This document shows, one piece after another, positions 9,004-62,849 of a DNA stretch of 64,000 nt; position 1 is the stretch's first letter, and every line of letters begins with the position of its first letter. The notes under the pieces are model-generated. The model was not told the origin of the DNA. It was given only the letters and a program-made list of their open reading frames with translations, and did not search any database. Both the position numbers and the translations under genes were made by a program. Source of the DNA: Tetraselmis striata (lineage: Eukaryota; Chlorophyta; Chlorodendrophyceae; Chlorodendrales; Chlorodendraceae); NCBI GenBank assembly GCA_006384855.1, contig VCJN01002003.1, forward strand, positions 1-64,000. The letters run 5' to 3'.

Positions 9004-9043
9004 ATGTCCCATCGCGCATTCGCCAGCTCCATCGGCTCGTCGG
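9004..9043 (+). pseudogene. Virus-like gene 2, first 13 codons, split by MULE1
   Basis: ATG at 9004 abuts the TAA of gene 1. The frame (MSHRAFASSIGSS) continues precisely at 18001 when MULE1 and one copy of its 11-bp target duplication are removed. The transposon therefore landed 30-40 bp inside this gene. Confidence 0.55.
9033..9043. repeat. Target-site duplication, left copy (MULE1)
   Basis: CGGCTCGTCGG, identical to 17990-18000. Eleven bp is within the 8-11 bp range typical of Mutator-like elements. Confidence 0.9.
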
Positions 9044-9104
9044 GGTAAAAGGGCAAATATCGAGTCAAAATGGGGACATTTACGGACTCGAAAATGTGCC
9101 CCCC
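9044..9104 (+). repeat. MULE1 left terminal inverted repeat
   Basis: Aligns with the reverse complement of 17928-17989 with few mismatches and one or two 1-bp gaps near the tip; the inner 45 bp are nearly identical. Confidence 0.9.
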
Positions 9105-9106
9105 TT

Positions 9107-9149
9107 AACTCGGTTTTTGCACCCCCCACGGGGGGTGCAAAAACTGAGT
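9107..9149. repeat. Subterminal perfect hairpin next to the MULE1 left end
   Basis: ACTCGGTTTTTGCACCCCC pairs with GGGGGTGCAAAAACTGAGT across a 4-nt loop, allowing one G-T mismatch. It sits immediately inside the terminal repeat. A shorter hairpin (ATGTACCCA / TGGGTACAT, 17883-17905) lies inside the right end. Candidates are transposase-binding or regulatory structures. Confidence 0.6.
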
Positions 9150-9406
9150 AACGCTCAATACCGTACGAATGTACTGTGAAACTGACCTTTCACACATTCT
9201 TGCCAACACTGTACTTCACCCACACTGCACTATGTACTACACATCTGTCCACCGCCCCTTGACGAGATGCGTCGCTACCAGCCCATGGTAACCGTTTTTG
9301 CCTCGAATGCTACTCCGCCGCTGTGCTTTTCACTCCTCTATCACTCGCAAGCACCCTCGCGCTTTTGTTCAGGGAGGCATCTTCACGCATCTTGGTTCAC
9401 AAAAGC

Positions 9407-12330
9407 ATGGCAGACCGTCCTCGCAAAGGAAAACGCACCTCTGCCCGGTTGAAGACTCCGGTGGCGGGGGCATCTGCAGCTGCGCTTGGCTTTGACCCAA
9501 CGAGCAGGGCTCTCGACACAATGCTAGTGACCCCCATGGCGCAAGATTCTCCGCAGATGCACTTGCGTTCGGGCAGGAGGGCGTCTCAGGCTCCAATACC
9601 CACGATTCAGCCCATAAGGGCCATGCAACCGAGCGGTGGGCAACATCGAAGCGGACCGCCATGGCCTTGGTACGGAGATTCGCAGCCTTTGGCTGAGCCG
9701 GGGCCTCAGCCTAACCCCCAGCCTCAAGGCGTGCCACCTTTGGACCCACTCCCCGGAGCGACTCCAACGGTACGCGGACTCGCATCTTCGTTAGCGTCAC
9801 TCATCTCCGCGCCGTGGGCTGCGTTAAGCGCATCTCGCCATCGCGCATCTCAGGGTCTCAACTCACCCAGACCGATGTCGAACAGTCTGGAGCCGGTCAA
9901 GGTCAACCTTTGGCCATGATTCATGAGGATAAGCACGGACAGGAAGAGGAGGAGGAGGAGGAGGAGGAGGAGGGGCCCAATACTGTCGGAGGGTGTCCGC
10001 CTGGACAAACGAGCCCCGCCACAAGCGCCACAAGTGGGAGCAAAGTGGTAACCCCTGCGAGCGGGACTTCCCTGCGTACTTCGCCACCTGGCCCGAACCA
10101 CAGGACGGGCATCCCGACGACTACAAGGAGCATCACAAGCTCTTGACAAGAGTCATTCGCAACGTGGTCAACGTGTCGCCCAACTCGAACTTCTTCTTCA
10201 TGCCTTGCCTCCACGCCATCGTGGACCTCTTCCCTTGCCCTGAAGGTATGGAGCTCCGGGTGCCCATCTCGGTCTTTGACAAGCGCCACGTTGGCCAAGA
10301 CGCCGCGAAGACGTGGGAGTTCACATTCGTCAGGTTTCAAAGAAAGACATACCGCGTTCCCGAGAAGGGCAAGCTCGTCGTGTGGCTAGACATCGTCACG
10401 ACTCCAGGGCACTTCGCGTTTGCTGTCTGGCAGTCGCGAGATGGTGCCTTGGTCGCCCGTGTCTTCATCTACGACTCCTGCGTCTCAGTCAAGGTACCCA
10501 CCCGCGCCATCCCCTACTCCGGTTGGCAAGCTGTTTGGCTGGAGATTTCTAGGCCTCCCTCCCTGGGGGGGTGGAACCCCCCACCCCCTGGCCACGGCTT
10601 CCTCCACGGGGTCGTCACGCAACAAAGAGACGCCAGCACCTGCTGGGCGAGATGCGTGCTTGCTGCCAGAGCCATCGCCACGTTCTTCTTGTGGAAGTTC
10701 TTCGTGAAGATGCCTGTTCCAGGCCACAGCGGTGTGACCGAACCCCCCCCCCAGCTCCTCGTTGGCGACGACAATGTCGACACATTGGCCAAGGTTTGGG
10801 CACCCTTCTTCGAGTGTGCGCACATCTCCGAGAACCCCTCCTTCAACACCAAGGACCGTCTGGAGGTTGTTTACCCGCATCTCCACGGCAAGCTCACGGG
10901 ATTCCCCATCGAGTTCTTCCCCTTGGCCACAAATTCACCCTGCTTCTCGGTGGGCAACTTGCCGCAAACTGTGAGGCACTTTGGCTTCTCCGACACAGCC
11001 GCGAATAAGATTGCGCTGACTCTCGACATGGTACCGACCAAAGTGTTCACGAGCACTGCTGCAAGTGGAGTACGGAAGCTGTGGGTGCGTGCGCTCCCTG
11101 AGCCTCATAACGAGCACGCCTACGCCGACCGCAAGAGGGCACTCCAAGAAACCAATGGCAGCCAGGGAGCATGGCCGGAGACATCTTGGCAAGATGCCGT
11201 GGAGTCTGTCCTCTTCGTTGAGTGCCAGAGTAGAACTGTGAAACACTGTGGCTACTCGATTCGCAGCGTGCGCGAATGGCACAACGACTACGAGATGCGG
11301 CGCGGCATTCAACATATCAAGAACAAATGCTTCACGAAGTCAACCAACACCTACCAGCCCTGCCGAGGCAGCTCGGCACCCCGCACCGTCTTGGTCGACA
11401 ATCGCTACTACCAGGTCGTAGCGGCGCCTCGTCAAGCTGGCGGGTCCTCCAAGCCCGCATCTCAACCACCGCCAGCGGGGTCCGGTGGAGATGGTTCCCA
11501 AAACGGCGCTGCAGCAGGTCTCCTCGAGCTTCGAGCAGCTCTGCCGCCTCCCCCCAGCAGGCTTGGTCCCTCGGTGACTGCCAAGCCGCCGAGTGAGCCT
11601 CAGCCTTCGAGAGCGACGAAGCGCTCGCACGGTGCGTTGAGCACAGGAGGCAAGACCACCTTGTCGCCCATGAAGCTGCGTAGGAAGCATTCCGAGAAGC
11701 GCGGGCCGAGTCCTCCTTTGAAGATGGCGACAGAATTGGAGGACGACGACCCCTTCCAGGCGCCTAAGCCGAAACGCGAAACCCGGTCAAGCCGTCAGGC
11801 GCCTTCGGGTGCCGCTGCTGGAAGTCTCCTTGCCACATCTTCCCAAGGCGGTGCCCCATCTCTGCGTCCCCGACCCACATCTCCGCCCAAAAAGCCCTCA
11901 TCTCGGGACGCAAAGCCCGTAACGCCGCCTGCACGGACATCTCGGCCTCCTACTCTCGCACCGACAGTCTTCCGCCGGCCTAGGACAGGGAGCACTCCAA
12001 GTGCACCCAGGCTCGGCTTCCAGCGGTATGCTCCTCTCCCTCCCCTTCGTGGGCAGCCTGCACCCACGCCCCTCGCTGAGCGACTTGTCGCGCCTCGCCT
12101 TGTCGGGGAATCTCCGCCAATCACCGACCCCACCGTCGCCACTCTTGTCGGCAACCAAGACTTCCTTCAAACACGCGTCCGCTCGTTTTTTGGGTCCCAA
12201 GACCTTTGCGACCGCGTCGCTGACCTAGGGGACAGGCTGGTCGCTGCACGTCTTGCCGGTTCCCTTGGTGAGGAAAAGGCGTGGACCTTCATTGGAGGCG
12301 GCAGGAAGCAGCTGCATCTCGACATGAGTG
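9407..12330 (+). CDS. MULE1 Ulp1-like (C48-type) cysteine protease region
   Basis: ATG at 9407 opens a basic, Pro-rich N-terminus (to about 9890); an intron or frame change around the GAGGAG tract (about 9890-9990) joins it to a long frame ending at the donor at 12331. The protease core is visible: TPGHFAFAVWQ (catalytic His, about 10411), VFIYDSC (Asp, about 10465), then GVVTQQRDASTCWARC (oxyanion Gln and nucleophilic Cys, about 10609). This His-Asp-Gln-Cys order is that of Ulp1/SENP-type SUMO proteases. After a second conserved region with AVESVLFVEC (about 11200), a long disordered basic tail follows, then a short conserved C-terminal block. The MULE2 homologue keeps the regions I can compare. 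The action on SUMO-like conjugates is inferred from the family. Confidence 0.75.
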
Positions 12331-12406
12331 GTGACACCAACCCCCTTTCCCATCCCTTATTTACGTCCTTGTTCACCAACGACCTCTAACACCTCACGAC
12401 CCGCAG
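12331..12406 (+). other. Intron (MULE1 cargo gene)
   Basis: GTGACACC...CCCGCAG. Splicing joins ...SG to PDD... in phase 1. The MULE2 homologue has a phase-1 intron at the same protein position (60063-59965, GTAAGTG...CTGCAG), which supports both introns and shows that the protease region continues into the downstream segment as one gene. Confidence 0.65.
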
Positions 12407-13506
12407 GCCCCGATGACCTGAGACTGCGGGGGAGGGGCGGGGACGACAGCACGGTGAACATGCGAGCCTTCCTAGCCTCCGATGAACACCGGCTCGTGTA
12501 CAACGAGTTGCGGGGGATTTGCAACGAGTATGTCCAAGAAGCTCACCGGCAGCTACGAATCTCGTCCCCTGGTTACATTGCCCGGCACAAGGCCCTCGTC
12601 ATGGCAGACCCGGACTGCGGCTCGGGTCCTGCCCATGCAGATGGCGTGGCGGGGGGGCTCCTCCTCATCATCTTTCTCAATTGTTGTGCGCCACTGACTG
12701 CCGTCCGGAGGGGGAGAGATGTGACTATCGTCGACGCCTTGAAGTGGGCTGCACCTGGAATCGTGAGCCTCCCCCCCTTCCCCAACACCCCTTTTCGCCT
12801 TCCACAGTGCCATTGTGTTTTAGACACCAGTAGGGTGGAATCTCACCCTCGCGTGTGACTCTCACTACATCTTGGCTCAGTGGGAAGTGGCTGCAGCCTC
12901 GTCGCTTGGCGTCGTGCCGTGGCTGGAGCAGAATCGGCCGGAGGTCCTTGCCGAGCTCCGGAAGGTTCGGAATCTCTGCACTGGGCGCCTCGCTCAGAGC
13001 AAATCTCTCGTTCCCCTCGGCGTCGTGGACGACCGGTACCGCATGGACGTCTGCGATGGAAACGAGGACGCTGCGACATACTCGCGCCCTGGTCTTGCGT
13101 TTCTCGTGCCTGCACAAGATGTCCACGCCAGCCCACCCAAGGGAGGCGTCAACCCTGCGTTCGCAACAAGATGCCCGAGATGCAAGGAAGTTGCGGGTGT
13201 CAGCCCTTGCTTCCGCATCTTCCTGAGCTTGCACCCCAACACATGCGCCATGATGCCAGGACCGGAGTGGCAAATTCTGTCCTACCACGTCCCCGGCATG
13301 GCTGCCTTCCTGCCTGAAGTCGACCACAAGGACGAGGCCTACCGTCGCATGCACGAGACAGCGAGAACCATGGCGGCGGCGAAAGAGATGCGGCACTGGA
13401 GCCCGGAGGCCCACATTGGGGACGACGACTACATCCTCGAGGACGTCAAAGCAGCGGTGGGTGAGGCCACCGCACAGGCAAGACTGACGAGCAAGAGATG
13501 CGGAGG
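12407..13506 (+). CDS. MULE1 Cys-rich middle segment of the cargo gene
   Basis: Continues from the protease region across the intron ending at 12406. A first exon (12407 to about 12765) includes DALKWAAPGI. After an intron with a C-rich tract (from about 12768; acceptor about 12827 or 12880) comes a second exon with RNLCTGRLAQSK, a CPRCKEVAGVSPC zinc-ribbon-like pair (about 13168) and an acidic tail. The MULE2 counterpart (59964-58625) aligns along its length: RNLCQDRVITRK, VTRCRDC, DAVKWACPLF. No known family was recognised. A donor at 13507 and acceptor at 13674 would link it in phase 2 to the methyltransferase-like exon. Confidence 0.55.
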
Positions 13507-13674
13507 GTGGAGAGAATTAACCGAGAGGGATGGGATTACCCGCATCTCCGCAGTGGGGGCAGGAGAACGCCCGCATCTCTCGCGTACAAACCCGTGTACT
13601 ATAACTCCGACCTCTTGTAACCACGAGACGCTTACCGTACCCGACTTCCCTGCGTGGTGGAACCTTTGAAACAG

Positions 13675-14368
13675 GCTGTTGCGCCGGATTTTTCCGGAGA
13701 TTGGTGGTACGCTGTCAACGTACGCAGCTCGCTTGACTGCGGGGATGCCTGGCGCGTGGTCTAAGCACACGCTGAAACGCGGGCACGCTATTTACCGCAA
13801 GATGTTGGGCAACAACCCACCGTGCATCTACACATCTCCGTGGGAGTATCCCTGCTTGACGGCCTGCGTTAAGACCTGGCGACAGGTCTGCGTGTGGGAT
13901 CCCTGCAGCGGCTTCGCCGGCACGGCACACGCTCTGTTCGGGAGGGCCAGGAGGGTGATATTGAGCGACATCAACCCGTGTCGCGTGTCCCACTTCGTCG
14001 CCGACGCTTTGCCGCCGGAAACACACGACAAGGCCACTGCCCTGTGCAACGAGCCCTTTGTCGTCGTGACGTCGCCTTGGTTCAGTCACTTGGACTTTCT
14101 CCTACCGCTGCTGGCGGCCTCCAAGGCGGATATCCGCTGCGTGCAGATTCCGAGCACCTACTTGACGCAAGGCCCCCTCCCGCGAATGGACTACCTCGAC
14201 AGTCTGTTGACAGCGGGTCGTGTACTCATCATCGCGTCGAAGCACCCAAGAAACCCCGACACCAACAAACGCGCCTTGTGGTTGGTCGTCGGAAGAGATT
14301 CGGCGACTTTAACGGCGCATCTCTCGGAGCACCTCGCCAAGCAACGTGGGTTCGTGTATGGTCCGTGA
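13675..14368 (+). CDS. MULE1 SAM-dependent methyltransferase-like domain
   Basis: An acceptor (TTTGAAACAG, 13674) opens an exon that runs to TGA at 14366. It shows VWDPCSGFAGT (SAM-binding motif I, about 13896), VILSDINP (acidic end of strand 2, about 13956), then VVVTSPWFSHLD (motif IV position, about 14064) and a Q-x-P-x-x-YLTQGPLP loop (about 14142). This layout fits class I methyltransferases of the DNA adenine type, but the usual (D/N)PP(Y/F) is replaced by TSPWF. The MULE2 copy (58315-57617) conserves DPWAGKGGT, VLLSDV, IVTSPWFSLLD and YLTQGPPP, so the variant motif is a family trait. Whether it methylates DNA, RNA or nothing is unknown. It is probably the last exon(s) of the protease gene; a separate gene is the alternative. 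Confidence 0.6.
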
Positions 14369-14486
14369 CAGGGGAATCAACATTAGTCATAATCGACGAT
14401 CATTAGAAACTGTTTTCGACAGCAGATTAGAGTTTAATCGTCTCTCGTCCGTCGATTTCACAAACCGCATTTCCTTTATTATTGCG

Positions 14487-14598
14487 CCCGGGGCAGCGGG
14501 GCGCCAACGAGCCGCGGCCCGGGGCAGCGGGGCGCCAACGCGCCGCCGCCCGGGGCAGCGGGGCGCCAACGCGCCGCCGCCCGGGGCAGCGGGGCTCA
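14487..14598. repeat. 31-bp GC-rich minisatellite, about 3.5 copies
   Basis: The unit starts GCCCGGGGCAGCGGGGCGCC and is followed by AACGCGCCGCC. It lies between the two convergent MULE1 genes. A closely related 30-bp unit occurs in the opposite orientation at 25052-25160 in CACTA unit 1. Confidence 0.8.
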
Positions 14599-14599
14599 T

Positions 14600-15109
14600 C
14601 ATAGTGTTCGCCAAAATCAGTATGTACCTGCAGATCATCTAACTTTCTTTGTGTTGTCTGGGTACTAATAGTCTTCTTTCAGAGTGGCTATAAAGAATGA
14701 TGCTGCCTCTGCACTTTTAACTGGTCCAGCAGAGATATGTAGCAGCTTAGCCATCTGGTTTGCTGAGAAGATGCTCACCACTGCTGGTATGGGTTCGATC
14801 TCACAGCCAAACAGTGTTGCATCTGGCTGTCTCTCGTGCATGGTTCCATCAGCCCAGTGCATATCCGGATAAAATTCTTTGACCTATGGAAACGCATAAT
14901 ATCACATCGCAGTTATTGGAGACACTGGGGAGGCAAACAGAAAATAGCCTCTGTGGTATAACCATCTTCAAAGTGATGCGTTATTGTCACATAGTGTCAA
15001 GAGAGTTTATACGTTGTACCGTCTGCGAATTCTCCTCGCAGAAGTGAGACTCGCACGTCGGATCGCGGAGTGCCATTACAAACTTACGCCTTTTACATAA
15101 GCCATACTG
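14600..15109. other. Convergent intergenic region of MULE1, with a possible small minus-strand exon
   Basis: AT-richer than its surroundings. A 65-codon minus-strand frame (14862-14665) reads like coding sequence (DMHWADGTMHERQPDATLFG), but no family, splice context or homologue in MULE2 was found. Both gene 3' ends face this region. Confidence 0.3.
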
Positions 15110-17659
15110 TTACGATCTGCGGGCACTTTTCCTTGATTTACGCCTCGCCCTGCGTCCACTGCCGCCCGCGGCAGGGGAGGCGGAAGGAGATGGAGCCCCC
15201 GTACCCGTTGCCGCCCGGAGATTCCCGCGCTGCGGCACCGCGTTTCCGCGACGGCGCTGCGACGCGTTCCCGCCGTCTTGGGGCTGCCGCACTAGAGCCC
15301 CAGTAGGACCGCGAGGCCGATGCATGCCTGGACGGTCGCTCATGTCGCCTGCCAGCCTCTCAAGTCGCATCTTCTCCGTAGGGTCTCGTAGGGCACCCCA
15401 CAGAAGCTGGTGGGAGCAGATGCCGTAAAGCCAGAAGCGCTCGCAGTCGCATCTTGGCTGGCCGTTTTGAAGGGTCACTCGATTAAGGAAGAGGAAGTCC
15501 CGCTCAATCGCCTGAATCGTCCAACGCGGCATGCTTCCCACATTTCCGGCCAAGCTGTTGCGGTGCTTCAGCACCGCTGCTCTAGTGACGCTACGAGTGC
15601 CAATCTTGAAGGGGTCGCCCACGACATACAACGCCTCGTCGACCTCCATATGGCTTCCCTCTGCCTGCAGGTAGTCAACCGCGAAGTGGACGTCCGTCGA
15701 GAGCTCCATGCGGAAGGCAGGGTTGATAGACTTGGTGCCGTGCTTCTACGTCTCGTCCTCCAGCCACTTTGGGAAGTGCTTCTCCATTAGGGAGTCGGTG
15801 GGGTTGCGCAATCCCTTGGGAAAGGCGTTCTTGGCAGCATTGTGCCACCCCTCCATGCTGTTATTCTTGGCGGGAACTCCCACGAAGGTGGAGGCGCTCG
15901 ACCACCAGTCGAGGTTGGCGCCCAAATAATTGTCCTTGAACCACCGGGCGACTGGCCTGGGAGCTGACCTGGCCATCACTTGCAACAACTTGGTCCCAAC
16001 TGCCTGTGCCTGTTCCTCGGAGCGGCAAGAGTGAATCACCTTCACACACAATTCGCACACCTTCCACTCGTGCTCCCCTCGGCATACATGGACACGTCGA
16101 CCGTTGACGCTCGTCGTGCCCTTCTTGAACTGGAACTTGTGAAGGACATGTATCCAACACCCAATGGTCTGCAAGAGATGCACAGCGTGACCGCCTCAGC
16201 GGGGGAGATTCGTACCTATTGTCACGAGATTCCACCGAGAAGCGTCAAACGGGGGGAGGGGCGGGAGGCGGGGGGGGAGAACCCTCGCAGTAGGGAAAAC
16301 GTTTCTTTTGGCGACGCGAATTCCGCCCCCTTTGTCGCTCAAGAGCCCGCGCACATTGGGCGAACTGCCATACAACGTCTTGTGCGTGTCCATCGTCGTC
16401 TGGAACAAGAGGGTCATCGCTGCCCCATCCTACTCTTGCGCGAAGCAGAACGAGATTGGGCGGAAGCTGTGAACGAGGGCGTACTTCTCCATGTCATACT
16501 CGATTGAGTGGGTGCCCAGGGTCAACAGGACCCACTTACCGTAATGAATCTTGTGCGTGCCGTCCGTGACGAGGCAGAGTGGGAGACTTCCCGTTTCGGC
16601 GAGGCGCAAGGTCCTAAAAAGGCCCATCGTTGTGAACACCACTCCTTTAGCCTCCTCGCTGAACTGTAGGACAACCAACTTGTCGTCTTCCAACTGCGCG
16701 TCGCTGTCACCGGAGTTCGGAGGTGGCATCTCGTTGCGACGAGCCCAATCTCTGAGATCGGCAATAGACTCGTAAGCCCGGGGCCCCTTCTCTGCGCGGG
16801 TGAGGCTCTTTTTCCAGGCTTTAAACGCCACTCGCCACGCCCTCGCGTCCGCAATCTTCCTGTCTTCTTTGTTAAGTTTCTCCACAAGTCGCATTGGCGC
16901 GTCGTCGATGTGCTCCTTCATCTGGGCTTTAACTCGCTGAGGAATGCGAACTTTGCCGTCCACGACGACGTCAACCTCCTGCTGCGAGTGGAGGCGGTGG
17001 TCGCGCTGCATTTGCCAACGCTTGCTCGCCGAATCATGACAGATGCGGAGATGCGCGGGGCAATTAACGTGGGAGGCGCAGTTATACACCTGCCGATAGC
17101 CAAGCCTTGTTAGTGAATACAATCGTGGAACATGCCAAGATACTGGTACAATATGCCTATGCTTCAGACAACACGAGTGAGGAGCGCTCACATACGCGCC
17201 CTTGCTGGTGTATTGGTGCCTCCATTCGTCCATCATCCAGGTCAACTCCTTCACTGCGGCTTGCCTTGTGAGAAAGGTTGCATCGCCAACCTTCCTCCAG
17301 TCGAATCTCACACGCTTTTCCGCCCCTTCACAAGAAGCGCTCCCCCGCCCGCGGGAGCTTGGCGAGGGTGTTGGGCGCTTGCTTTGCTGGCTTTGCGGGC
17401 CGGTACCGGCCCGTTCCGGACCCGTACCGCATGGAGGCGCGGTGTACAACGGTCCACCTACCTCCGAAGGCAGACACGGAGAAGGGGCGAGCCCATGTAG
17501 CAACTGTCCAGCAACGGCATTCACACCCTCTTTGAAAAGCTTGTCTCTGTGATCCGGTTGAAGGGGCAAACTGTCTAGGAAGGAGATGTAAGGCTGAATT
17601 TGCTCTTGGGCCTGGCGAAAGGCTTCGCTGGCTTGCGGGGCAGAAGAACGGTCGGCCAT
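15110..17659 (-). pseudogene. MULE1 MULE-type transposase with SWIM finger, one nonsense codon
   Basis: ATG at 17659. In order: a coiled N-terminus, a Cys/His-rich DNA-binding region (CCLKHRHI...CASHVNCPAHLRIC, about 17180-17030), LCLVTDGTHK (first catalytic Asp, about 16570), GLLSDKGGG (second Asp, about 16350), then after an intron a CELC stretch, KNNSMEGWHNAAK (Glu, about 15860), and the SWIM finger CDCERFWLYGICSH (C-x-C-x(n)-C-x-H, about 15440). The C-terminus is Arg/Ser rich. A TAG at 16430-16432 lies in frame where MULE2 encodes Ser (..ESEG..), so the protein is cut just before the second Asp. The exon boundary near 15710-15745 also shifts frame. Confidence 0.82.
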
Positions 17660-17927
17660 GACGGCAACACAAGTACGTTAAAGAGAGTGGAGTGCAACAC
17701 AGTGGTGTGGACTCGAGAGTGGGGCGAGGAGTGAAATCTCCAACGGGGTGAGTCACCACGGGGCGCAAAAGAGCGCCGCCACCTAGGTTGAGGCGGTAGT
17801 ACGTTACGCTAAAGAGGGCGCGAAGAGGACACGGAGAATTGTCATTGTTAGTACTCTCGTATAGTTATAAATTGCACCTGAAATGTACCCAAAAAGTGGG
17901 TACATATACGAGTCTATGCGATCACTT

Positions 17928-17989
17928 GGGGGGGGCACATTTTCGAATCCGTAAATGTGCCCATTTTGACTCGATATTGCCCCATGTAC
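17928..17989 (-). repeat. MULE1 right terminal inverted repeat
   Basis: Reverse complement of 9044-9104 with few differences; it ends at the right copy of the 11-bp target duplication. Confidence 0.9.
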
Positions 17990-18000
17990 CGGCTCGTCGG
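17990..18000. repeat. Target-site duplication, right copy (MULE1)
   Basis: CGGCTCGTCGG, identical to 9033-9043. Confidence 0.9.
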
Positions 18001-49735: not shown

Positions 49736-50139
49736 TGCTAGGGCTACACCTAACCCTACACCAAATCCTACACCTTACCCTGCACTTTACCCACATAACC
49801 ACTTATCTCATATTATTATCATTTCCTATATCATATCATTACCTGCCGTACTTCTGTAACTCGTACTGTAACATGTACGCATATCATTTATCATTATCAA
49901 TCCCAATCACCGATGCTACTACTAAAAGTCCCCGATGTTGCTACTGACATTCCCCGATGCTATATGTCCGCAATGCCCAAGGCTGACCGCTGAACTACTC
50001 TGCCGCTGCTCTGCCTCCGTGCTGCTGGCTGCCGCTAAATAGCTGAACTAGCTGATGATCATGTAACATTTCGACACTGTTTCCTCACAACCTTTGCCTT
50101 ATTGCCTCTAATTGCATTAGGGCATTACTGTACCTCACA
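49736..50139 (+). repeat. 5' LTR (404 bp)
   Basis: Begins TGCTAGGGCTACACC, ends TGTACCTCACA. Boundaries follow from alignment with the solo LTR 59395-59795, which has a target duplication. Confidence 0.82.
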
Positions 50140-50140
50140 T

Positions 50141-50158
50141 TGGTTTCGCGAGTCCTGG
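50141..50158 (+). promoter_or_regulatory. Candidate primer-binding site
   Basis: TGGTTTCGCGAGTCCTGG, one base after the LTR. It begins TGG, complementary to a tRNA CCA end; the priming tRNA was not identified. Confidence 0.45.
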
Positions 50159-50195
50159 TCGCCCCCCCCCCTTCCCCCCCCGCGCTTCTCAGCTT

Positions 50196-51259
50196 ATGCC
50201 CGTATCAACCCGCAGCCAAGCTACCGCTCTCTTTGCTCAACCTTCTGCCATGACTCAACCTATGGATATTGACCCGGTCTCTCGTGCTGTCCAAGCTGAG
50301 CTCTCCAAGTTCGCTATTCGCGCCCCTGCCAACGACATCCCTGCCGATCGACGCATCTCTGACCGTCGTGACCTATCTGCTCTCAACCGCTTCCTTTCTA
50401 CCATCGCCGAAACTATCCACGGCCTCTACTGGACACCTGCTCTGGAGCAATGGCTGCTCCGCCAGTTCGACTCCGACAACGAGACCGGCGTCCTCTACCG
50501 TGCCCTCATCGACTCCCTGACTTCTGTCGACCGTGAAGTGACCACCGGCATCACCCTTGCTACCTACTTCGCCGACTTTTCCGACTTCAGGAGCAAGCTT
50601 ATCAAGAAACTGCACGGCTGCGCGACCTTTCACTCCCTCGTCCACAAGCATGTCAAGAACCTCAAGATCGCCCCCAGCAACCCGTCTATGGCGAGCAACT
50701 CGGTCGATCTTGCGTCCAAGATCGTCCGAGCCTTCCAACTGCCCCCCGAGGCGGACCGCCCCAACGAATCTGCTATGGCTGGACTCATCTTGTCTCAGCT
50801 CCCGGAGCAGACCAACGCCCGCGTGGAGGCAGCAGCGATGGTCGCCCGCGAGGAGCTGACAACCCTGGACACCCTTCGTCGCCACCTCGAAGCTGTCGAC
50901 GCTGAGTTCGCCGCTATGGCCGCTGTTGCCAAGCGCCGTGCCAACGGTAATCCTGGTTCTAACCCGCCAAATAAATACATTCGCCCGGTGCTGGCCCTTT
51001 CCCTTCTGTCGTTCTGCCAGGACCGCCCTCTAATCCTCCGCCTAACCCCTCTCAGGCCTCTGGCTCAGGCACTAGGCCGATTCCCGGCTTGGCCGGATAT
51101 GGCCGTTATACTGAAATCTGCTCTGGCTGTGGTAAAGTAGGCCACTCTATTATGGTCTGCCCTGAGACTAGCCTCGCTGACAAAAAGGCTTGGCAAGCTA
51201 AAGTGGCTGCCACCAAAACCTCTAAGGGTCTTAAGGCCATGAACCTGAATGACCAATGA
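50196..51259 (+). pseudogene. LTR retrotransposon gag with CCHC zinc knuckle
   Basis: ATG 50196. Helical capsid-like region (YWTPALEQWLLRQFDSDN, LATYFADFSDFRSKLIKKLH, ILSQLPEQTNARVEAAAMVA), then a Pro/Gly-rich linker where the frame changes (about 50950-51000) into CSGCGKVGHSIMVC (C-x2-C-x4-H-x4-C, about 51120-51165). Stop TGA 51257. The shift is near the end of the capsid domain and is probably a lesion. Confidence 0.7.
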
Positions 51260-51361
51260 CGGGTTGGGGCAGAGTATGCCGTCAGACGTTCGAATTGTAA
51301 TTCAATCGAATTTGTCCCAGCTCCGCCGTGTTATCCCCCGACCTCTGAGGCCCGATCTCCA

Positions 51362-52238
51362 ATGGCACTGCATCCGGACGAGAATAGCCCAGCTACCGCC
51401 GCCATAGTGGCTGATGCGCACGCTGAGGCCTCCTCGGTATTGCCCACCGAGTCGTACGAACCAGTGGCGCTCACCAACGAGCAGGTTCGTAGGTCCCTGT
51501 CTGCCGTTGACTTTGCCATCCCCTGCGGACAATCCAACCGAGGGCCTGTCTCGTACTGGGAAACGTTATGCTATTCGCCGGTCCGTCAACGCCAGCACGC
51601 TAAACAGCGGCATGCTAAAAAGAATATTGACCGACCAACTGCCTGCCCACCTGACTCTATTCGTTTTGATAAAACTGAAATGTCTCGACTAAACTCTGAA
51701 TATGGTCCCATAACTCTGGACGCTTGTGCCTCTGCGTTTGACGTTGTTTGCCCTCAGTACTGCTCTAAGGATAAACCCTTTACCCCCACTTCAGCAATTG
51801 GTCATACTGTACTAATAAATCCACCATACGACGAATCAGTATTGCCAATTCTCGAACATTTTGAGTCTCAACGCTAGGAATCACCTTATGACACTCGTGC
51901 TATAATCATTTTGCCCCGCTGGTCTTATGGCTTAGGGAAATCTTGGACCCCTATACTGAGAAAGTACAAAACGACTCCATTCCTACCCCGCAGGTACCTG
52001 CATGTTCCACACTGCCACATCTGCCACTGAGGACTTGCCGATGGCACCCACACAGTGGATAGTTGACGTATACCTCGCAGATAGCACTGTCGAGGAACGT
52101 GAGGCTGCTGCCATTAATTATGTCATGGTCACTGAGGACTACAAAGCCTCAGCTACGAATCTCAAGGTAAGACACACATCCCGCGTGCCCGGGTCAAGTC
52201 GCACCAACCCCGCTTTGAAACAGAAAAAGCCTTTATAA
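51362..52238 (+). pseudogene. LTR retrotransposon Dam-like adenine methyltransferase domain
   Basis: YGPITLDACASAFDVVCPQY, then SKDKPFTP and VLINPPYDESVLP (motif IV NPPY, about 51811), broken by TAG at 51875. The same frame continues with AIIILPRWSYG; a frame change leads to QWIVDVYLADST (about 52056). LDxCAS...NPPY...LPxW is the signature of the Dam-like domain described in DIRS-type and some algal Ty3 elements. The catalytic NPPY is intact in sequence, but the TAG interrupts the protein. Confidence 0.65.
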
Positions 52239-52243
52239 CGTAT

Positions 52244-52483
52244 GTGAACGACAACGATCTACTATTACTCAATCCAACCCTAACTGAACACCCTGCTTTA
52301 CCGCCTGCTACTATGATGCTCGATAGCGGCGCTGCCCTTTGCTTTATTGATGAACAGTATGTCCGCCTAAACAAATTACCCACTCAACCTCTAAATACTA
52401 AAATACGGATCGTCATGGCTGATGGCCGCCTGTCTCTTGCGGCTAAATCATGCACCCTCAAGTTGAATATAAACGGTTATACG
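52244..52483 (+). CDS. LTR retrotransposon aspartic protease, truncated
   Basis: MMLDSGAALCFIDE (catalytic D-S-G, about 52315), IVMADGRLSLAAK, then LKLNINGY. This is the N-terminal half of a retropepsin; it is cut by the MULE2 terminus, after which a few foreign codons follow to a TGA at 52523. Confidence 0.65.
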
Positions 52484-52750
52484 GGGAGAGGGCAAAAACG
52501 CGAGCAAGAAAGTATTGTATCATGATGCTCGGGTTTTGGCTCTGTTTTTGAGCCCTAATCCGAGCAAAGTGAGCCAAATCTCGTGGTACTGAAAAGGACG
52601 AATTTAGGGTTTCGTACAGTTGCATTAAGTACTGGGATCATCGCGCTGGCACGACCGCGGCTTCTAGATTGTGTCGTCAACGGTTTTCGCAACGGGAGGG
52701 ATCACTCGCCACACCCGTGCCGTGCCCCAAAGGCCTCCTACCTTATAGCC

Positions 52751-55700
52751 ATGTCAAATTCGGCGTGGTCCAATGGCGAGCATATCGACGGCATGTTTCA
52801 GTACATGCAGGTCAATTCTGAGCGCGTGTGGTCGATGTTGCAGAGTCTGGAACCTGCGCTTGGTGCCGATACGGCACGGGGCTTGCTGACTAGATTTGTC
52901 GATCGCTCCTTGGCTGAGGTTCCGGTGGTTCCACGTACTAGTGCGACTCCAACACATGGCACCGCTGGACAGGAGGCAAGCGTCGGGCCTAACGACCGGG
53001 AGTTTCCAGCACCGGCTGAGGCGTCAACCATACGAGGGGGGTGCCCGCAGACCGTGAAGCCCTTGCGTTGCTGGCAAAGTTTCGGCCGGAAGCTGCAACC
53101 CCAACCCGTACCGGGACTCGCTTACCGCCTCGCACGCAGCCTTATACCAGCGTCCCGATCCAAGAACACGAACGTTCCAAGTCAGGAGGACATGATCATG
53201 AGTGGTCAATGCCGGTTGTTGATGAAAGAGAGTGGGAGTCGTACAAGGCCTTGACGATTGATATTCTCGACTTCGGCGAAAAGTGGCGCTACCTCCACCG
53301 ATCTGACGCCGCGAAGGTAAGACTCGCGGGTGCATTTCTTTCCTCAAATGGCCTTTATACAAGCCAAAATAACGGGCGTGTATGGCATGCTTCCTGCGCC
53401 GTCGAAGGTCTACGCTTGCCGGAGTCATGCCGGATGCGCAGCGAGACTACGAGCCGTTCAAACTTCATCTGAAAAGTGGGGCATTGATTACAACAACGTG
53501 TCGCACACGGCGGCGAAGCTAGGCGATGACGACGGCGTGCCACAGGCTCTACGCCCCAAGTTGAAGCCCGTCATCACTGACTGCGGCATGACCCCGAAGA
53601 AGGCGTTGAACCGCTTCACGTCGCAGGAGCTACGGGACGCGGGAGTTCCCGAAGGGGGGCGACCCGAATTGCTTAAAAAGGTTCAGCGATGGAAGAGGGC
53701 ACTCGCGGTGAAAGGGAAGGGAGTTCGTGCGCTATCTTCCTTTGCTGACTTGCAAGAGTGGGTGGATTCCAATCTCCTGCCCGCCCCTCAGAATATCGAT
53801 GACGACCTCGAGTTTGATAAGTTGTTCGTGCTTCGGAATGGCGTGCAAGCTGAAGCCGAGGCAGTGGCGTTCTCCACAATCGAGCTACTGAGGACGGTTC
53901 AGTACGTCCAACTCAGTGGCATGCCGTTACATTTCATGACCGATGGCACGCACAAGGTGTCCTTTAATCGGTGGGTCTTGCTAACGGTGGGAACAACAAC
54001 AATCAGACCCCAGACTAATAGCCACGTCGATCTCGTCAACTCCTTCATACCAATCGCGTTTTGCTTCGCGAGAACGGAGAGCGAAGGGGCTTTCTGCACG
54101 TTATTCAAGGTTGTTGTAGACTCTTGCGAAGAGTTGTTTGGGCAACGACCGTCGCCGCATGCCGTGGTATCGGACAAGGGGGTCGGCGTCCGCGCTACCA
54201 TTTCGGCTGTTTTTCCAAAAATACCAAGTGCGAAGGTATGTCACACAATACTTGAGGGACTGCGCTCGCCCGCGGTTTGTTTTGTATGTATGCCGAAGGC
54301 AACACTATGCGGCGGGGCGCAACAATCTAGGGCTTTCCGTATACAAGTCACCTCCCGCCTACATTGTTATTTCATGCGACGGGGCTTACAACGGTGTCCG
54401 CGTCGCAGAGAGTGAGTTGTTGGGTGCATTTGCACCGCAAGGTCGACAGCCCCAGTTTCCGCATCAAGGAGGACGGGCAGCCATTCCCCATTCTACGCAA
54501 TCGCACCGCCAATGTCGGATTCCTGCGGAGCGTCGTCAACGTCATACATTTGTGTCGGACGACGGAGCAGGCAGTCGCCGTGTCTACAGTCCTCATGGGC
54601 GAGTTGCGGCGAAAAGGCGAGAGCCGGGCTGCAGCTTGGCTGGAGGGCCAGTATCTCGGCGACAATATGGACTGGAACATATCCACTGGTGTTGGGGGAG
54701 TCCCGGCCTCTACAAATCCTCAAGAGAGCTGGCACAAGTCCATGAAGGTCGACCTCGACATGGGGCCACGTCGTCGAGCCACCGCCACCCTATTGGAAAC
54801 AACTTTCCAGGAGATGTGCAAGCTGCAAGGCCGGCAGTTCCGGGAGGATAACGAGCCCTTCAACCACGGCTTGACAAAGGAGTTTTCAACGCTTGTGCAC
54901 GAGGCCATGGACTTTGCGACGCCGGCGCGTACTGGCTTAACCGCGTACAAGTGGAAGAATGGCGACCTTTACGTAAATGATGACCCTCTCGTTGAGGACA
55001 ACGTCACCGACCGACGCGTCACCGATTATGAGAGAAGTCTATGCGGTGACCTGCCTCGGTCTTGCACCACAATCGGAGGCGTCAGACGGACATGCAGGTC
55101 TCTAAACCGCGTTCTGGACCTATCAGGTCTCGGAATATCATGCGACTGCAAGAGTTTCATGTGCCATCCCCAGTGCGGACATATGTACCTGTGGCGAGCA
55201 CTGACAAACGACGTTGTTTCCAGGCGGTTCAGCGGCGGGGTGCGCCCAATGGGGGGTGAGCGCCCCCCGTTTCGGCCTGCGCATGCGACTCCGGCCGTGA
55301 CCGTCCAACCTTTGGAGGGACAAGCCCCCCGGCGTCGGGGGCGCGGCGGCAATCGACGACGGCCAGACGATACTTCTGACCGTCTGAACACTTCAACTCC
55401 CGCGACACCTCCCTCTGACATCCGTCGGAAGCGGACGACCACCGCAAAACGAGTTTTAGACGCACCTCCGGTGGCTCGCGAGACAAAGACGCCAGTTGCC
55501 GCGACTGACAACCACGCGAGGGTTGCGTCCGGTTCCGCTTTGGATCCCGAGACTGCCCTTTCTTCGCCGCAAGGGAATGCCCCAGCCCTGCCTACTAGAG
55601 CACCGGATATCGCCTCGGCGTTAGCCGAACAGGTGGTCTGCCATCCCAAGCGGCCCTCGTCTACGCCAGAACGTGCCCAAGGTCCCGCTACGCGTGCAAG

Positions 55701-56103
55701 GCCGGGCGCGCCGGCTGCAGTCGAAACGGCGAAACGAGATCCCGGTAGAGCCGCGAAAGCCAGCCGTTTGCGGGCCTCAACGAGCGGCAAAGCGCCTTGG
55801 GCGAGAGGCCTTCTCCGGGAGCCTCCTGCTAAACCCGTCGGGTTCCGTGCACGAAGAGCTCTACGCCAGGCTGAAGAGGCCCTGGCGGAGGCGCGGCGGT
55901 TTCGAAGGAATCTGATGGCGCGTGAACGCTACAAGCGAAAAAAATTGGCTGCACGGGTAGTTGGCGATCAGCAGCAGGCGCCTAAAAGGCGCAAACGTGT
56001 TTCAACGCAAGCACCGGAGCCCGCGAAATCCATCAGTGGAATGTCGTGCTCTTCCGGCTCCCTCGAGGATCTTTGGTGGTGTCAGTCGAAGGGGAAGAAG
56101 TAG
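52751..56103 (+). CDS. MULE2 MULE-type transposase with SWIM finger
   Basis: ATG 52751 (MSNSAWSNGEHIDG). Several exons; the second ends at 53316 (GTAAGAC donor). Cys-rich region VYACRSHAGC (about 53410), HFMTDGTHKVSFNRW (first Asp, about 53931), HAVVSDKGVGVRA (second Asp, about 54160), intron 54236-54408 (GTATGTC...CGTCGCAG, phase 0), then NPQESWHKSMK (Glu, about 54718), SWIM finger CDCKSFMCHPQCGH (about 55143), and a long Arg/Pro-rich tail. Stop TAG 56101. Unlike MULE1 no nonsense codon was found in the catalytic region; exon joints near 53030 and 53320-53400 are uncertain. Confidence 0.82.
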
Positions 56104-56159
56104 TAATTTGCAGGTATATAGGGATTGCAGTTTCGCATGTATAGTTCGCCTAGAATGTT

Positions 56160-57500
56160 GCGCTGCACCGCAGATTGTTGCCTTCGGTCAGCGTCAACTG
56201 CCTACAACGCTGTAACACTCTCCTCCTCCGTGCATAGGCGCTCGATGACAAGACACATGTATCAAGTCACACCCCCTTGTACTTCATAATCGCGACGACG
56301 AGGCCTAGATTGTTGCGTCCCGCCGCAGATTGTTGCCTGCGGCCCGCGGTACCTGCCTACACGACAGCAACACTTCCCTTCTCTCAGTGCTAGCTGCAAC
56401 TGTGTTATTTTACCCGCGCATAGGCTCGACGGCACGGCAGGGATTGGATTGCTGTTCGGGTACTCGCCTGACGACTTCACCATGCATTATACGGAACACC
56501 CTAGATTGTTGCTCCCCGCCGCAGATTGTTGCTTGCGGCCCGCGGTACCTGCCTACACGACTGCAACACTTCCCTTCTCTCGGTGCTAGCTGCATACGTG
56601 TTATTTTACCTGCGCATAGGCTCGACGGCACAGCAGGGATTGCTGTTCGGGTACTCGCCTGACGACTTCACCATGCGTTATATGGAACACCCTAGATTGC
56701 TGCGCTACACCGCAGATTGTTGCCTGCGGCCCGCGGTACCTGCCTACACGACTGCAACACTTCCATTTTCTCAGTGCTAGCTGCAACTGTGTTATTTTAC
56801 CAGCGCATAGGCTCGACGGCACAGCAGGGATTGCTGTTCGGGTACTCGCCTGACGACTTCACCATGCGTTATACGGAACACCCTAGATTGTTGTGCCCCG
56901 CCACAGATTGTTGCGTTCGGCATGTACTATAACGGTCAATACACGGCTGCTTACATACCCGGACTATGTGGAGTACGGGTATTATCCATGCATAAGAGCT
57001 CGATGACAAGACACATGTATCTAGCCACACCCCCTTGTACTTCATATTCGCGACGACGCGCCCTAGATTGCTGCACTGCACCGCAGATTGTTGCCTGCGG
57101 CCCGCGGTACCTGCCTACACGACTGCAACACTTCCCTTGTCTCAGTGCTAGCTGCATACCTGTTATTTCACCAGCGCATAGGCTCGACGGCACAGCATGG
57201 ATTGATGTTCGGGTACTCGCCTGACGACTTCACCATGCGTTATATGGCACACCCTAGATTGTTGCTCCCCGCCGCAGATTGTTGCGTTCGGCATGTACTA
57301 TTACGGTCAATACACGGTTGCTTGCACTACCCGGACTATGTGGCGTACGGGTGTCATGCGGACGAATCCGCATGAAGACAAAACATTTGTTTAGGTACGT
57401 CCAGTTTCTGACGTCAAGCCCTAGATTGCTGCGCTGCACTGCAGATTGTTGCCTTCGGCCCGCGGTACATGCCTACATGGCAGGAACACTTTCCCTGCCC
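56160..57500. repeat. ~190-bp tandem repeat array with paired AGATTGTTGC motifs
   Basis: About seven units, each with CCTAGATTGTTGC then CGCAGATTGTTGCC a few bases later, followed by CTGCCTACACGACTGCAACA and a GGCTCGACGGCACAGCAGGG segment. It lies between the convergent MULE2 genes. The same motif pair recurs in the array at 61040-62560. Confidence 0.85.
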
Positions 57501-57616
57501 GAGTAATTGCTGCAAACGTGTATTTTAAAAGGGCCGAGGCTCGACGGCAAAGCATAGATTGCTAGTCATGTACTGGCAAGTCGCAGAATCAATTACATGC
57601 TATCGGACGATACGAT

Positions 57617-58315
57617 TCATGGAACACCTTCAATTATTAGTGGTACGAGGGCGGAGGCCTCCGAACCGCATATATGCCGGTCTACTTCCTCGCCGACCTG
57701 ACAAATCACAATCCATAGCGCGCGCTGTTGTGTCAGGGGGTTTCGGGCTTGAGCAGACATGACAACGCATAGTCTGCGAGATTCAGCGAGACTTCGAAAG
57801 AAAGCAGTTATTGGAGGGGGTCCTTGCGTGAGGTACGTCACTGGTGCCTGCACGCAAGTCATTGTTGTTGCCGACTTCGCCGCCAAAGGAATGAAGAGGT
57901 CGAGAAGACTGAACCAAGGCGACGTCACTATGACATATGGTTCGCCGATTGTTCTTCGAGCTCTTGCGTGTGTATCCGGGCATAGAGCATCCGCAACGAA
58001 GTCGTTGCCCGCGTAGGCTACCACATCGCTAAGCAATACCCTCGTACCTTGCAACGCCGACCTCGTGCCGCCCTTGCCGGCCCACGGATCCCACACATAA
58101 CTCGAAGTCAGGCTTGGAACGGCCCGGATTAGAGGCAAATACTCCCAGGGCGATGTCGGTATGCAGGGAGGTGTCGGTTTCGCCTGTAAATGCGCATACT
58201 TTTTGAAAGCCCGGGAGATGTGGCCATCCGCCCAACTGCCTGGCATGCCCCAGCACAACCGGAGCATAAATTGATGGCGTGTAGCACCCAATTTGGGGAC
58301 TCCTTTTTTGTATCC
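57617..58315 (-). CDS. MULE2 SAM-dependent methyltransferase-like domain
   Basis: The exon begins after the acceptor GCCTCGCAG (58316) as GYKKGVPKLGATRH. VWDPWAGKGGT (motif I), VLLSDVVAYAG, FVADALCPDTHARA, VIVTSPWFSLLDLFIPLA (motif IV position) and YLTQGPPP match MULE1 13675-14368 throughout. Conservation of both the SAM-binding glycine motif and TSPWF between diverged elements implies selection on function. The upstream donor at 58624 (CAG|GTGTCC, phase 0) makes it an exon of the Cys-rich/protease gene; the intron holds a poly-C tract. Confidence 0.62.
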   Translation of the reverse strand, partial: GYKKGVPKLGATRHQFMLRLCWGMPGSWADGHISRAFKKYAHLQAKPTPPCIPTSPWEYLPLIRAVPSLTSSYVWDPWAGKGGTRSALQGTRVLLSDVVAYAGNDFVADALCPDTHARARRTIGEPYVIVTSPWFSLLDLFIPLAAKSATTMTCVQAPVTYLTQGPPPITAFFRSLAESRRLCVVMSAQARNPLTQQRALWIVICQVGEEVDRHICGSEASALVPLIIEGVP

Positions 58316-58624
58316 CTGCGAGGCCATCACGAAATCACACAAGGATTGAGGCTAAACACGTTGTTTACATAGGTTGCGGGAGGCGGGGGGGCGGGGGGGG
58401 GGGCACCGCGCGAACTAACTCGCTAAATGCTAAGTCTTGGGGGAGTTTCACCTCGCGTTGCCCGATTGTGACCCCACGCGGCTGTGAGGGAATATGAAGG
58501 ATGCTTGTTTCAATTGGTCAGGCTCGCCAGCGCTCGCATGGAGCATGAGCGCGAAGTCGATGCTCGGCCTCAGCGGAGACGGTACGCTGTCGTGAACCAA
58601 GACATTCGCCCATTGCGGGGACAC

Positions 58625-59964
58625 CTGCATTGCGCGGCGATGCTGCTCGACCTGTTGGTCGCAAATATCGTTGTACGGCGTAGGGAACAGCTGCCTGTTG
58701 AACGTCATGTCCAATGGCGTGAGATGCATACCAGGCAGACTTGCTCCGTTAGCGGGCGCCAGGACAACTTTGAGGTAGAAATGCCCGTCGATGGCCTGCC
58801 CCGCCGACTGGACACAGTCACGGCACCTCGTCACGGTTGCCGGATGAATGCCCCCGACCGCCGCGTCTGCAATCACTCGCTCGCCTGGAAGCGCGACTAC
58901 AAGACCCATCGTGGAGTATGAAGCGCGGTCGGAGCTACCACCACATCGGTTAAGGTGGTCTTCGTCAAGCAGCCCCCAAGGCACGAGCTCCTTCCGGGTG
59001 ATGACGCGATCTTGGCATAGGTTCCTGGCGCCGCCGGCCATTAGCATATTCAGAGACGGATAGAAGGCTGTAAAGTATGCCTCGGAGCCCAATGGAAAAG
59101 TTGATGCGCGTTCCGCCTGTACGTAAGGTCAAGTGAGGGGGGGGGGGGTTCAGTTCTACGAACTTTCATATATGCCGAGAAGGGCACAACTTGCAAGCAC
59201 GTATAGGCGAAGAGTGGGCAAGCCCACTTGACGGCGTCCCTTATGGGTATGGCAGGCGCGTTTCGCACGAGCATTAGAGGGTTGCAGCACGTGAAGTGGA
59301 CGAGGAGCAAGACTGTTCCGACACCGTTGCTGATAGTCTCCATGCCTGTCGGCGCTCCTGCCGGAGAATACACAAGAGTCCGCTCGACAGGCAGTGTTAG
59401 GACTACACCTGACCCTGCACTATACCCACATAACCACTTATCTCATATTATTATCATTTCCTATATTATATCACTACCTGCCGTACTTCTGTAACTTGTA
59501 CTGTAACATGTACGCATACCATTTATCATTATCAATCCCAATCACCGGTGCTCCTACTAACAGTCCCCAATGCTGCTACTGACATTCCCCGATACTGCTA
59601 CTGACATTCCCCGATGATATATTTCCGCTATGCCCAAGACTGACCGCTGAACTGCTCTGCCGCTGCTCTGCCTATGTGATGCTGAGTGCCGATAAATAGC
59701 TGAACCAGCTTATGATCCTGTAACATTCGATACTGTTTCCTCACAACCTTCGCCTTCTAGCCTCTAATTGCATTAGGGCATTACTGTACCTCACAGGCAG
59801 CATCTTGGCTCGGAACGCTAGTTTTCGCCCCGCTTCGTCTGCGACTTCCGTGACGAAGCCTTGCAAGTCCCTGTATAGCTCCGACCCTCCTGATGAGTTC
59901 CGTAGCCATTCCCCGACTGCAGCCCGCCTTGAGCCCGGCACCAAGCACCGTGGGTCTGTGGGAC
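58625..59964 (-). pseudogene. MULE2 Cys-rich middle segment, exon interrupted by a solo LTR
   Basis: First exon from 59964 (after CTGCAG) with ELYRDLQGFVTEVADEAGRK and FRAKMLP, interrupted by the LTR at 59800, resuming at 59394 with TLVYSPAGAP and DAVKWACPLF. After a C-rich intron comes a second exon with RNLCQDRVITRKELVPWGLL and VTRCRDCVQ, ending at 58625. It aligns with MULE1 12407-13477. Removing the LTR and one 5-bp duplication restores the frame, so only the insertion breaks this part. Confidence 0.6.
59395..59795 (+). mobile_element. Solo LTR (401 bp) of the Ty3-like family
   Basis: TGTTAGGACTACACC...TGTACCTCACA, flanked by GGCAG on both sides (59390-59394, 59796-59800). It matches the 5' LTR at 49736-50139 with scattered substitutions and small indels, and is missing a short repeated segment near its start. 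Confidence 0.9.
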
Positions 59965-60063
59965 CTGCAGATTTGGCCCATTACTACATTCAGAATTAGG
60001 GCATAACTTACCCTAGTAAGGGTTGCACAATCTGGGCAGCCGTGAATGGTGCCACGCACTTAC

Positions 60064-60918
60064 CGTCGCAGTCTAGCAACATCTCTTGGCGCATGCCGGT
60101 GGCGGGCTGAAACGGACAAGTGTCCGTATTGCCTGTCAGTTCGGAGCGCCTACGCATGAGCTCCTCCCCCAGTATGCGACATGTAGTGCGGTCAGTACCC
60201 ACGTAAAATGAAGCGTGGCCTCTCGCGAGGAAGCGCTTGCTTCCTATCGCTTCGTGGCGGAGGGGGTCGACAAGCGGAGGCACTCGAGTCGTCATGAAAC
60301 TATCTTGCGGCTTGTCCGTGGCAGCGGGGAATGGCAAGGGCGCCGCTTGAGGTGAAGGAACCGAAGGAGGCTTATCGGGGACTTGGGCCGGCTTGGGCAA
60401 GGCGCGTGGAGCACTTCCAGAAGTCGTTGCTTTCGCAAGGGCCACCGGATCCGTGGAAGTCCCCACGTCGACGCGTGCACTGGCTACACGCGTGCACTGG
60501 TGCACGCGTGCACCGACGCGTTTCGGCGCTACATCCTTTCGTGCGGCAGCTGGCAACTCTGACCGATGTGGGCCAGAACGAGACCGCTTCGTCACCCACT
60601 TCAATGTACGTTCAGGTTTGACAACCACCGCTGGCGCGGTAGCCGTAGAGTTATCGACAGTTACGACCGCCGACGGCTCGGTAGTCGTTGCCGTATCGAC
60701 CTTTGCGACACGTTGCCGACGTAGAGGATAGACTCGGGGACTAGTGGCGGGGGTGTCGGTGACTCGAGGAGGCCAAGGCGAGATGTTGCCTGTGCTAGCG
60801 CTTCCTGCCTTGAACTTCTTCACGGGTGCCTTACTGCGCGTTGCAGCAGCCTCCGATAGCCGTTTTGAACGGTACCTCTCGGCCATTTTCCATTCCGACT
60901 CGGGCTTTGTCGTTGTCT
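60064..60918 (-). CDS. MULE2 cargo gene: basic tail and C-terminal block of the Ulp1-like region
   Basis: The acceptor CTATCAG (60919) precedes a Lys/Arg/Pro/Ala-rich disordered stretch (ERYRSKRLSEAAATRSKAPV), ending in PPLVDPLRHEAIGSKRFLAR and MRQEMLLDCDG before the donor at 60063. The last 80 residues align with the MULE1 protease C-terminus (PPITDPTVATLVGNQDFLQT...LHLDMSG). Confidence 0.55.
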
Positions 60919-61039
60919 GATAGACGTGATACGTACGGTACGAGGAAGCGGAACGTGTCAGTATGCCTGACCTATTAGGGTTGCACGGCTCTCTGCAGCG
61001 AGGTCTATATTGCTGCAAAGTGCCGCAGATTGCTACCTT

Positions 61040-62560: not shown

Positions 62561-62849
62561 CGTTATTTATCTGCATTTATATGGCTGCAAGTCTGCGAGT
62601 GGACCTAGGTTTGACGAAAACAGTGGTAGTACCTAGCTTGTGGCGCCGCACCGCGCCGATTACATGTATATGCCCATGTTGCTACTATATATTTTTTATT
62701 ATGACACGGTTTACTGGTACTTATCCAAACACCTGACACGAATCGGCATGTATGAGCGGGTACGGGTCGGAGAGAGTCCACCTTTGCACCTTCCGCGGCA
62801 GCTTGCTCGGAGATTTTCCTAGCGGCGTCGGCTGCGGCCTTCCTCCCCG

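Follow-up and report, generated by a model that had tools for sequence, protein, structure and literature searches.

Does a DNA transposon of the green alga Tetraselmis striata carry, beside its transposase, a single gene in which a protease-like domain is joined to a relative of DNA methyltransferases, and what might such a protein do for the element? This question is raised by an element at positions 9044–17990 of a 64,000-nucleotide (nt) stretch, here called the window, of contig VCJN01002003.1 (GenBank assembly GCA_006384855.1), which an earlier note, made from the letters alone, had described as a complete Mutator-like element (MULE) with a cargo gene for a Ulp1-like protease, a Cys-rich segment and a methyltransferase-like domain. 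Our analyses support one predicted gene with protease-like and methyltransferase-like parts, found in the same order in three diverged families of such elements.

As had been noted, the element is bounded by terminal inverted repeats of 61 nt; they lie at 9044–9104 and 17930–17990, and the right arm is 90% complementary to the left. Flanking them is a target site duplication (9034–9043, ggctcgtcgg, and 17991–18000), which had been given as 11 bp; the duplication was confirmed, but its length is 10 bp in all three copies examined (the window copy, L067 and L068). Copy L067 makes clear that the eleventh base to match is the C with which the element itself ends. When the alga's own genome (224 Mb, 2903 contigs) was searched with the first 155 nt of the element, at least 40 near full-length matches were obtained at 97–100% identity, including the window copy, and the left arm was matched genome-wide. 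This count is a lower bound, with 40 of 582 candidates scored, and the matches exceed chance. Copies L066–L069 align with the window element in long blocks of ∼95–98% identity. Most of the transposase side is gone from L067, in which an internal deletion joins window position 14274 to 17256, and the alignment of L069 stops at 14753. The window copy is itself 0.16–0.17 kb shorter than four other copies near 10047–10056, its cargo reading frame is broken in exon 3, and its transposase frame, interrupted near 15746, reads as 415 + 149 + 211 amino acids (aa), compared to 481–482 + 361 aa in L068 and L066. Other copies with longer open frames exist. In our reading, the window element belongs to a Tetraselmis family of Mutator-like DNA transposons of autonomous type and is a damaged member of it.

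The transposase lies on the minus strand, convergent with the cargo gene; the copies that were read from each of the three families all show this arrangement. Its putative MULE-like N-terminal and catalytic part is at 16430–17677 and its C-terminal exon or exons are at 15110–16195, where a weak SWIM zinc-finger match was found (E = 0.1). No MULE match was obtained for this family (family A) against Pfam. The family A transposase is 34% identical to an open reading frame (ORF) of family B (L070) and 36% identical to one of family C (window 53321–54415), and the MULE transposase domain PF10551 was matched at 2.9e-4 in family B and 3.9e-5 in family C, both under the Pfam cut-off of 27.6 bits. The terminal inverted repeats are long, and the 10-bp duplication falls within the 8–11 bp range of the Mutator superfamily. 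Because the relatives in families B and C match PF10551, if below the cut-off, and in view of the terminal repeats and target duplication, the transposase is likely MULE-like through its relatives. The description as a complete MULE-type element thus stands on the repeats, the duplication, the near-identical copies and these relatives.

The family A cargo gene is predicted to have five exons on the plus strand, separated by introns in phase 0, 1, 0 and 2. Exon 0 (9407–10047, start codon inferred) would encode an N-terminal part of low complexity that includes an acidic run; the window copy has lost the junction between this exon and exon 1. Exon 1 (10053–12330), in a frame that is open from 9933 to 12389, would encode the protease-like domain, a conserved region and then a low-complexity basic region. 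It is followed by intron 1 (12331–12406, phase 1), exon 2 (12407–12762), intron 2 (12763–12823, phase 0), exon 3 (12824–13562, frame lost in the window copy), intron 3 (13563–13674, phase 2) and exon 4 (13675–14365), which holds the methyltransferase-like domain. Intron 1 is exactly as first proposed; the later intron, proposed at 13507–13674, retains its acceptor at 13674 and has its donor at 13563 instead. Exon 3 contains one CxxC (13172–13183), and of the one CxxC that public models of other copies show in exon 1, a single Cys is left in the window copy; “Cys-rich” was therefore an overstatement. Exons 0 and 1 are open for 1000 aa in copy L069 and exons 2–4 account for 593–595 aa in other copies, so the full product would be ∼1,600 aa.

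What might such a product do? By analogy with Ulp1-carrying VANDAL elements and with the DNA methylases of algal transposons, we infer an anti-silencing role. In the reading that we tentatively favor, which we hold to be plausible but far from assured, the family's cargo (acidic N terminus, protease-like domain, CxxC linker and C-terminal methyltransferase-like domain) is an accessory protein that shields the element from silencing. DNA or chromatin of the element would be bound, and perhaps also modified, by the methyltransferase-like part. There, the protease-like part would free either silencing factors or the transposase of a ubiquitin-like mark, such as small ubiquitin-like modifier (SUMO), or of another protein.

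The methyltransferase motifs that had been read from exon 4 are present, motif I as DPCSGFAGT (13898–13924) and a variant motif IV as TSPWF (14069–14083). Searches of Pfam and NCBIfam gave no match for the domain itself. Three of its 14 members matched phrog_799, “DNA methyltransferase,” the best at 7.1e-7. In hhalign comparisons with four phage proteins of ∼195–242 aa (phiLM21 gp27, RHph_N28_2 EVB88_074 and two hypothetical proteins), probabilities of 94–97% were obtained, with E values of 8.5e-8 to 9.3e-11; the score was 57.7, whereas none of 60 column shuffles exceeded 21.8 and the reversed control reached 17.8. Two of the phage proteins are annotated as DNA methyltransferases and two as hypothetical, and all four have only sub-threshold Pfam methyltransferase matches. 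The similarity extends over motif I, the acidic SD step and motif IV, and supports, at the profile level, a relationship to phage methyltransferases. An N-terminal GMPGxW segment of the transposon domain was not seen in the phage proteins. The class I methyltransferase assignment is thus borne out as profile homology, but motif IV is altered. DNA amino-methylases have (D/N/S)PP(Y/F/W) at this motif, and the four phage relatives have NPPF or NPPY, whereas all 14 transposon rows, three retroelement rows included, have SPWF and depart from the amino-methylase form. This change, together with the continued conservation of motif I and the SD step, would fit a domain that no longer methylates and has kept its S-adenosylmethionine-binding fold as a reader of DNA or chromatin, tethering the protease-like part to the element. 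We consider such a loss of activity possible, if on the unlikely side: TSPWF does not vary even in rows with identities as low as 27%, which favors a retained function of that loop, and N4-cytosine methylases have SPP[YWF] at motif IV, so that a changed base specificity could also be envisaged.

The protease-like domain shows the His-Asp-Gln-Cys pattern that had been described within 10410–10643. Specifically, the translation places His at 10410–10412, Asp at 10473–10475, Gln at 10623–10625 and Cys at 10641–10643, all on the plus strand. The family A pattern, H-x20-D-S and Q-x5-C, is similar in family B (L083), and the His, Asp, Gln, Cys order of peptidase C48 is found in both families. In family C, for which one copy was read (L082), the pattern is partly kept: the frame is broken, and Gly stands in place of Asp. 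The genome also encodes a C48 protein with HWCMAVIDLKEKCLRYYDSL and QRNGYDCG, which look similar to the protease-like pattern. The statistical tests lent the protease reading no support. Pfam returned no family at E ≤ 1 for the window ORF and none at E ≤ 10 for the family B and C pieces, and a PF02902 search of the alga's own genome found five places, none within the window. Alignment of the domain with C48 by hhalign gave probabilities of 0.1–1.4%, which are not significant. A structure model had a predicted local distance difference test (pLDDT) score of 45.6, and Foldseek found no match to it at E ≤ 0.001; none of the PDB, profile and fold tests supported a Ulp1-like protease. What identifies this part as a putative protease is therefore solely the catalytic pattern. 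Of the Ulp1-like protease first proposed, the pattern stands and a significant C48 profile match is missing from the Pfam and hhalign searches, for which reason we use “Ulp1-like” as a working name. The Q-x5-C spacing fits further CE-clan peptidases too, and the predicted protein is a long one whose parts are separated by low-complexity linkers. Both points suit an adenain-like maturation enzyme that acts not on SUMO but on its own long protein or on the transposase. We judge this improbable though worth keeping in mind, as the nearest precedent is the Ulp1 domain of plant MULEs.

Are the two parts encoded by one gene? We surveyed the introns at 30 loci around the methyltransferase-like ORF (L036–L065), 16 of which held all anchors. 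Exons 2, 3 and 4 were jointly open in 10 of these and the frames were broken in the other six. The GT donor of intron 3 was present in 15 of the 16, the window copy being the exception, and the acceptor AG in 14, with AT in L043 and L057. In family B, introns 1 and 3 were placed by eye at the same position and phase as in family A, intron 1 having a GC donor; joining the exons gives 574 aa of open frame, the acceptor of intron 2 having been selected so as to preserve that frame. In family C, the donor and acceptor of intron 3 are visible; no in-frame join was found in the window's second element, and in copy L078 the acceptor is, by eye, in phase. Public gene models, all from jgi/Tetstr1, matched the methyltransferase-like ORF (three models) and the protease-like ORF (14 models). 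Among these, P0013 matches the window with 100% identity across 63% of the query and is most likely the public model of the window locus; it joins the protease-like, linker and methyltransferase-like parts.

The two parts also travel together. A same-strand protease-like exon was found upstream of 28 of the 41 methyltransferase-like copies of family A, 14 of the 19 of family B and five of the six of family C, compared to none of 66 on the opposite strand; these counts rest on selected rows. The conserved intron positions and phases, this co-occurrence in three families and the purifying selection on exons 2–4 described below support the one-gene reading, and with it the proposal that the protease-like part is spliced to the methyltransferase-like part. 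The alternative, neighboring but separate protease-like and methyltransferase-like genes, could draw on a retroelement (L076) in which the methyltransferase-like domain sits in a Pol frame and no protease-like domain was seen. It appears quite unlikely, given that the exon 4 frame has no ATG before its 26th residue, that families A and B agree in the position and phase of introns 1 and 3, and that most anchored loci are open through the joined exons. Two further features of this region were observed. Upstream of exon 2 in a family B locus (L070:100–2010), a ∼200-bp unit, by eye resembling a single exon with a single intron, recurs in many head-to-tail repeats. At L049 (C2208), other sequence stands in place of intron 3 upstream of the methyltransferase-like ORF and holds a stretch like the element's terminal repeat.

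The order and orientation of the parts are common to the three diverged families, the methyltransferase-like part of family B being 41% identical to that of family A. The family C element is the second of its kind in the window, where it could be traced over 53020–64000 and on to contig position 65068 (L082), with broken frames. It has transposase-like ORFs on the plus strand (within 53020–64000, including 53321–54415), and, on the minus strand, a methyltransferase-like ORF (57623–58399) and protease-like exons (64002–65068). Selection was examined between two family A subfamilies (L037 and L046 versus L052 and L057). The ratio of nonsynonymous to synonymous substitution rates (dN/dS) was 0.10 for exon 2, 0.36–0.38 for exon 3 and 0.17–0.24 for exon 4, and the introns differed at 9–11 of 58–60 sites (intron 2) and 17–19 of 112 sites (intron 3). 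Between families, synonymous sites are near saturation, and dN/dS was 0.16–0.36 where computable; among young copies, with few changes, it scattered from 0 to ∼2. The ratios between the subfamilies indicate that exons 2–4 are under purifying selection. That the cargo is an inert passenger, host gene fragments taken up as in Pack-MULEs, is very hard to credit: the element does gather other sequence, namely a 72-aa piece of another repeated ORF (14668–14883, minus strand) and a simple repeat array, and six anchored loci have broken frames, but the same cargo in the same order recurs in families diverged to ∼41%, and the ratios for exons 2–4 are unlike those of unselected captured fragments.

The methyltransferase-like domain is not confined to Mutator-type elements. 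The family B domain, used as a query, matched open frames of up to 1771 aa. Part of one such frame (L076, 2063–5899, minus strand) encodes reverse transcriptase, RNase H, integrase, a PHD finger and then a methyltransferase-like domain that is 37% identical to that of the window. Similarly, P0018, P0024 and P0025 have a Ty3/gypsy-type Pol ending in a PHD finger and the methyltransferase-like domain, and each contains a C5 cytosine methylase match (PF00145) as well. A 15-sequence tree grouped the gypsy rows (support 98); the transposon families did not stay together in it, and the direction of exchange was not resolved. The presence of the domain in unrelated jumping genes suggests that mobile DNA may trade tools for handling silencing marks. 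A more specific version, which we offer as speculative and put on the doubtful side, is that the SPWF domain circulates between Mutator transposons, where it has a protease-like partner, and Ty3/gypsy elements, where it comes after a PHD finger and, in some of them, occurs alongside a C5 methylase, serving as a transposon-specific writer or reader of the element's own DNA mark while its partner strips or reads host silencing marks.

Several known systems resemble parts of this arrangement. According to two reports, VANC proteins cause hypomethylation of related elements, and both VANC and Ulp1-carrying KIU genes occur in VANDAL elements (PMC13317346, PMC5735166). These Arabidopsis non-TIR (lacking terminal inverted repeats) MULEs have a second gene with a Ulp1-kind peptidase beside the transposase, as the element here would if its protease-like part is of that kind; the present elements differ in having terminal inverted repeats, in residing in a green alga and in joining the peptidase-like part to a methyltransferase-like part, and VANC is likened by description. 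The Sola1 transposon of Ectocarpus is described as an algal DNA transposon whose accessory gene, on the strand opposite the transposase, pairs a ParB-like domain with a DNA methyltransferase domain of the N4-cytosine or N6-adenine kind (PMC12477816). Sola1 belongs to another transposon superfamily, its partner domain is ParB-like rather than protease-like, and the methyltransferase domains are likened by description. Cytosine methyltransferases in the coding region are described in PMC5890265 for the retrotransposons KnitGypsy-Dnmt3 and SymbioLINE-Dnmt, to which P0018, P0024 and P0025 are similar in holding PF00145 plus the methyltransferase-like domain. The domain studied here is not of C5 type; in the Pol of P0018, P0024 and P0025 it stands by itself at the C terminus, behind the PHD finger. 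The term PHD is absent from the main text of that paper. The same source mentions Dam-like adenine methylases in DIRS retrotransposons, also mobile elements with a DNA methylase but of another class (PMC5890265). Elsewhere in the window, within a retroelement-like stretch (50121–52525), there is a Dam-like ORF (51260–51877; PF05869 at 6.2e-4, under the cut-off) and an aspartyl protease-like ORF (52136–52525; PF08284 at 2.6e-5).

Algal transposons of other kinds have already been described as carrying DNA methylases. A protease–methyltransferase cargo was not found in the open-licence literature searched, and the terms Ulp, peptidase, methyltransferase and C48 are all absent from a Mutator survey (PMC6446971); within that literature, the methyltransferase partner stands as new for MULE cargo. 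If the reading proposed here is correct, a single transposon protein chain joins a protease to a DNA methyltransferase relative, and two classes of mobile DNA that are unrelated to each other use that relative in the same alga. The elements would then provide a testable case for how mobile DNA manages host silencing in green algae, and they offer a domain whose DNA substrate, if any, is open to direct assay.

Between the two convergent genes lies an array of a 31-bp unit (14485–14595), with three copies in the window element; copy L069 has many more. In public gene models, the translation of such arrays appears as repeats of RGANAPRPGQ type. The 72-aa piece next to it is also present in other copies of the element and comes from a large repeated family, members of which, at other places in the genome, have frames that are open for as many as 1529 aa.

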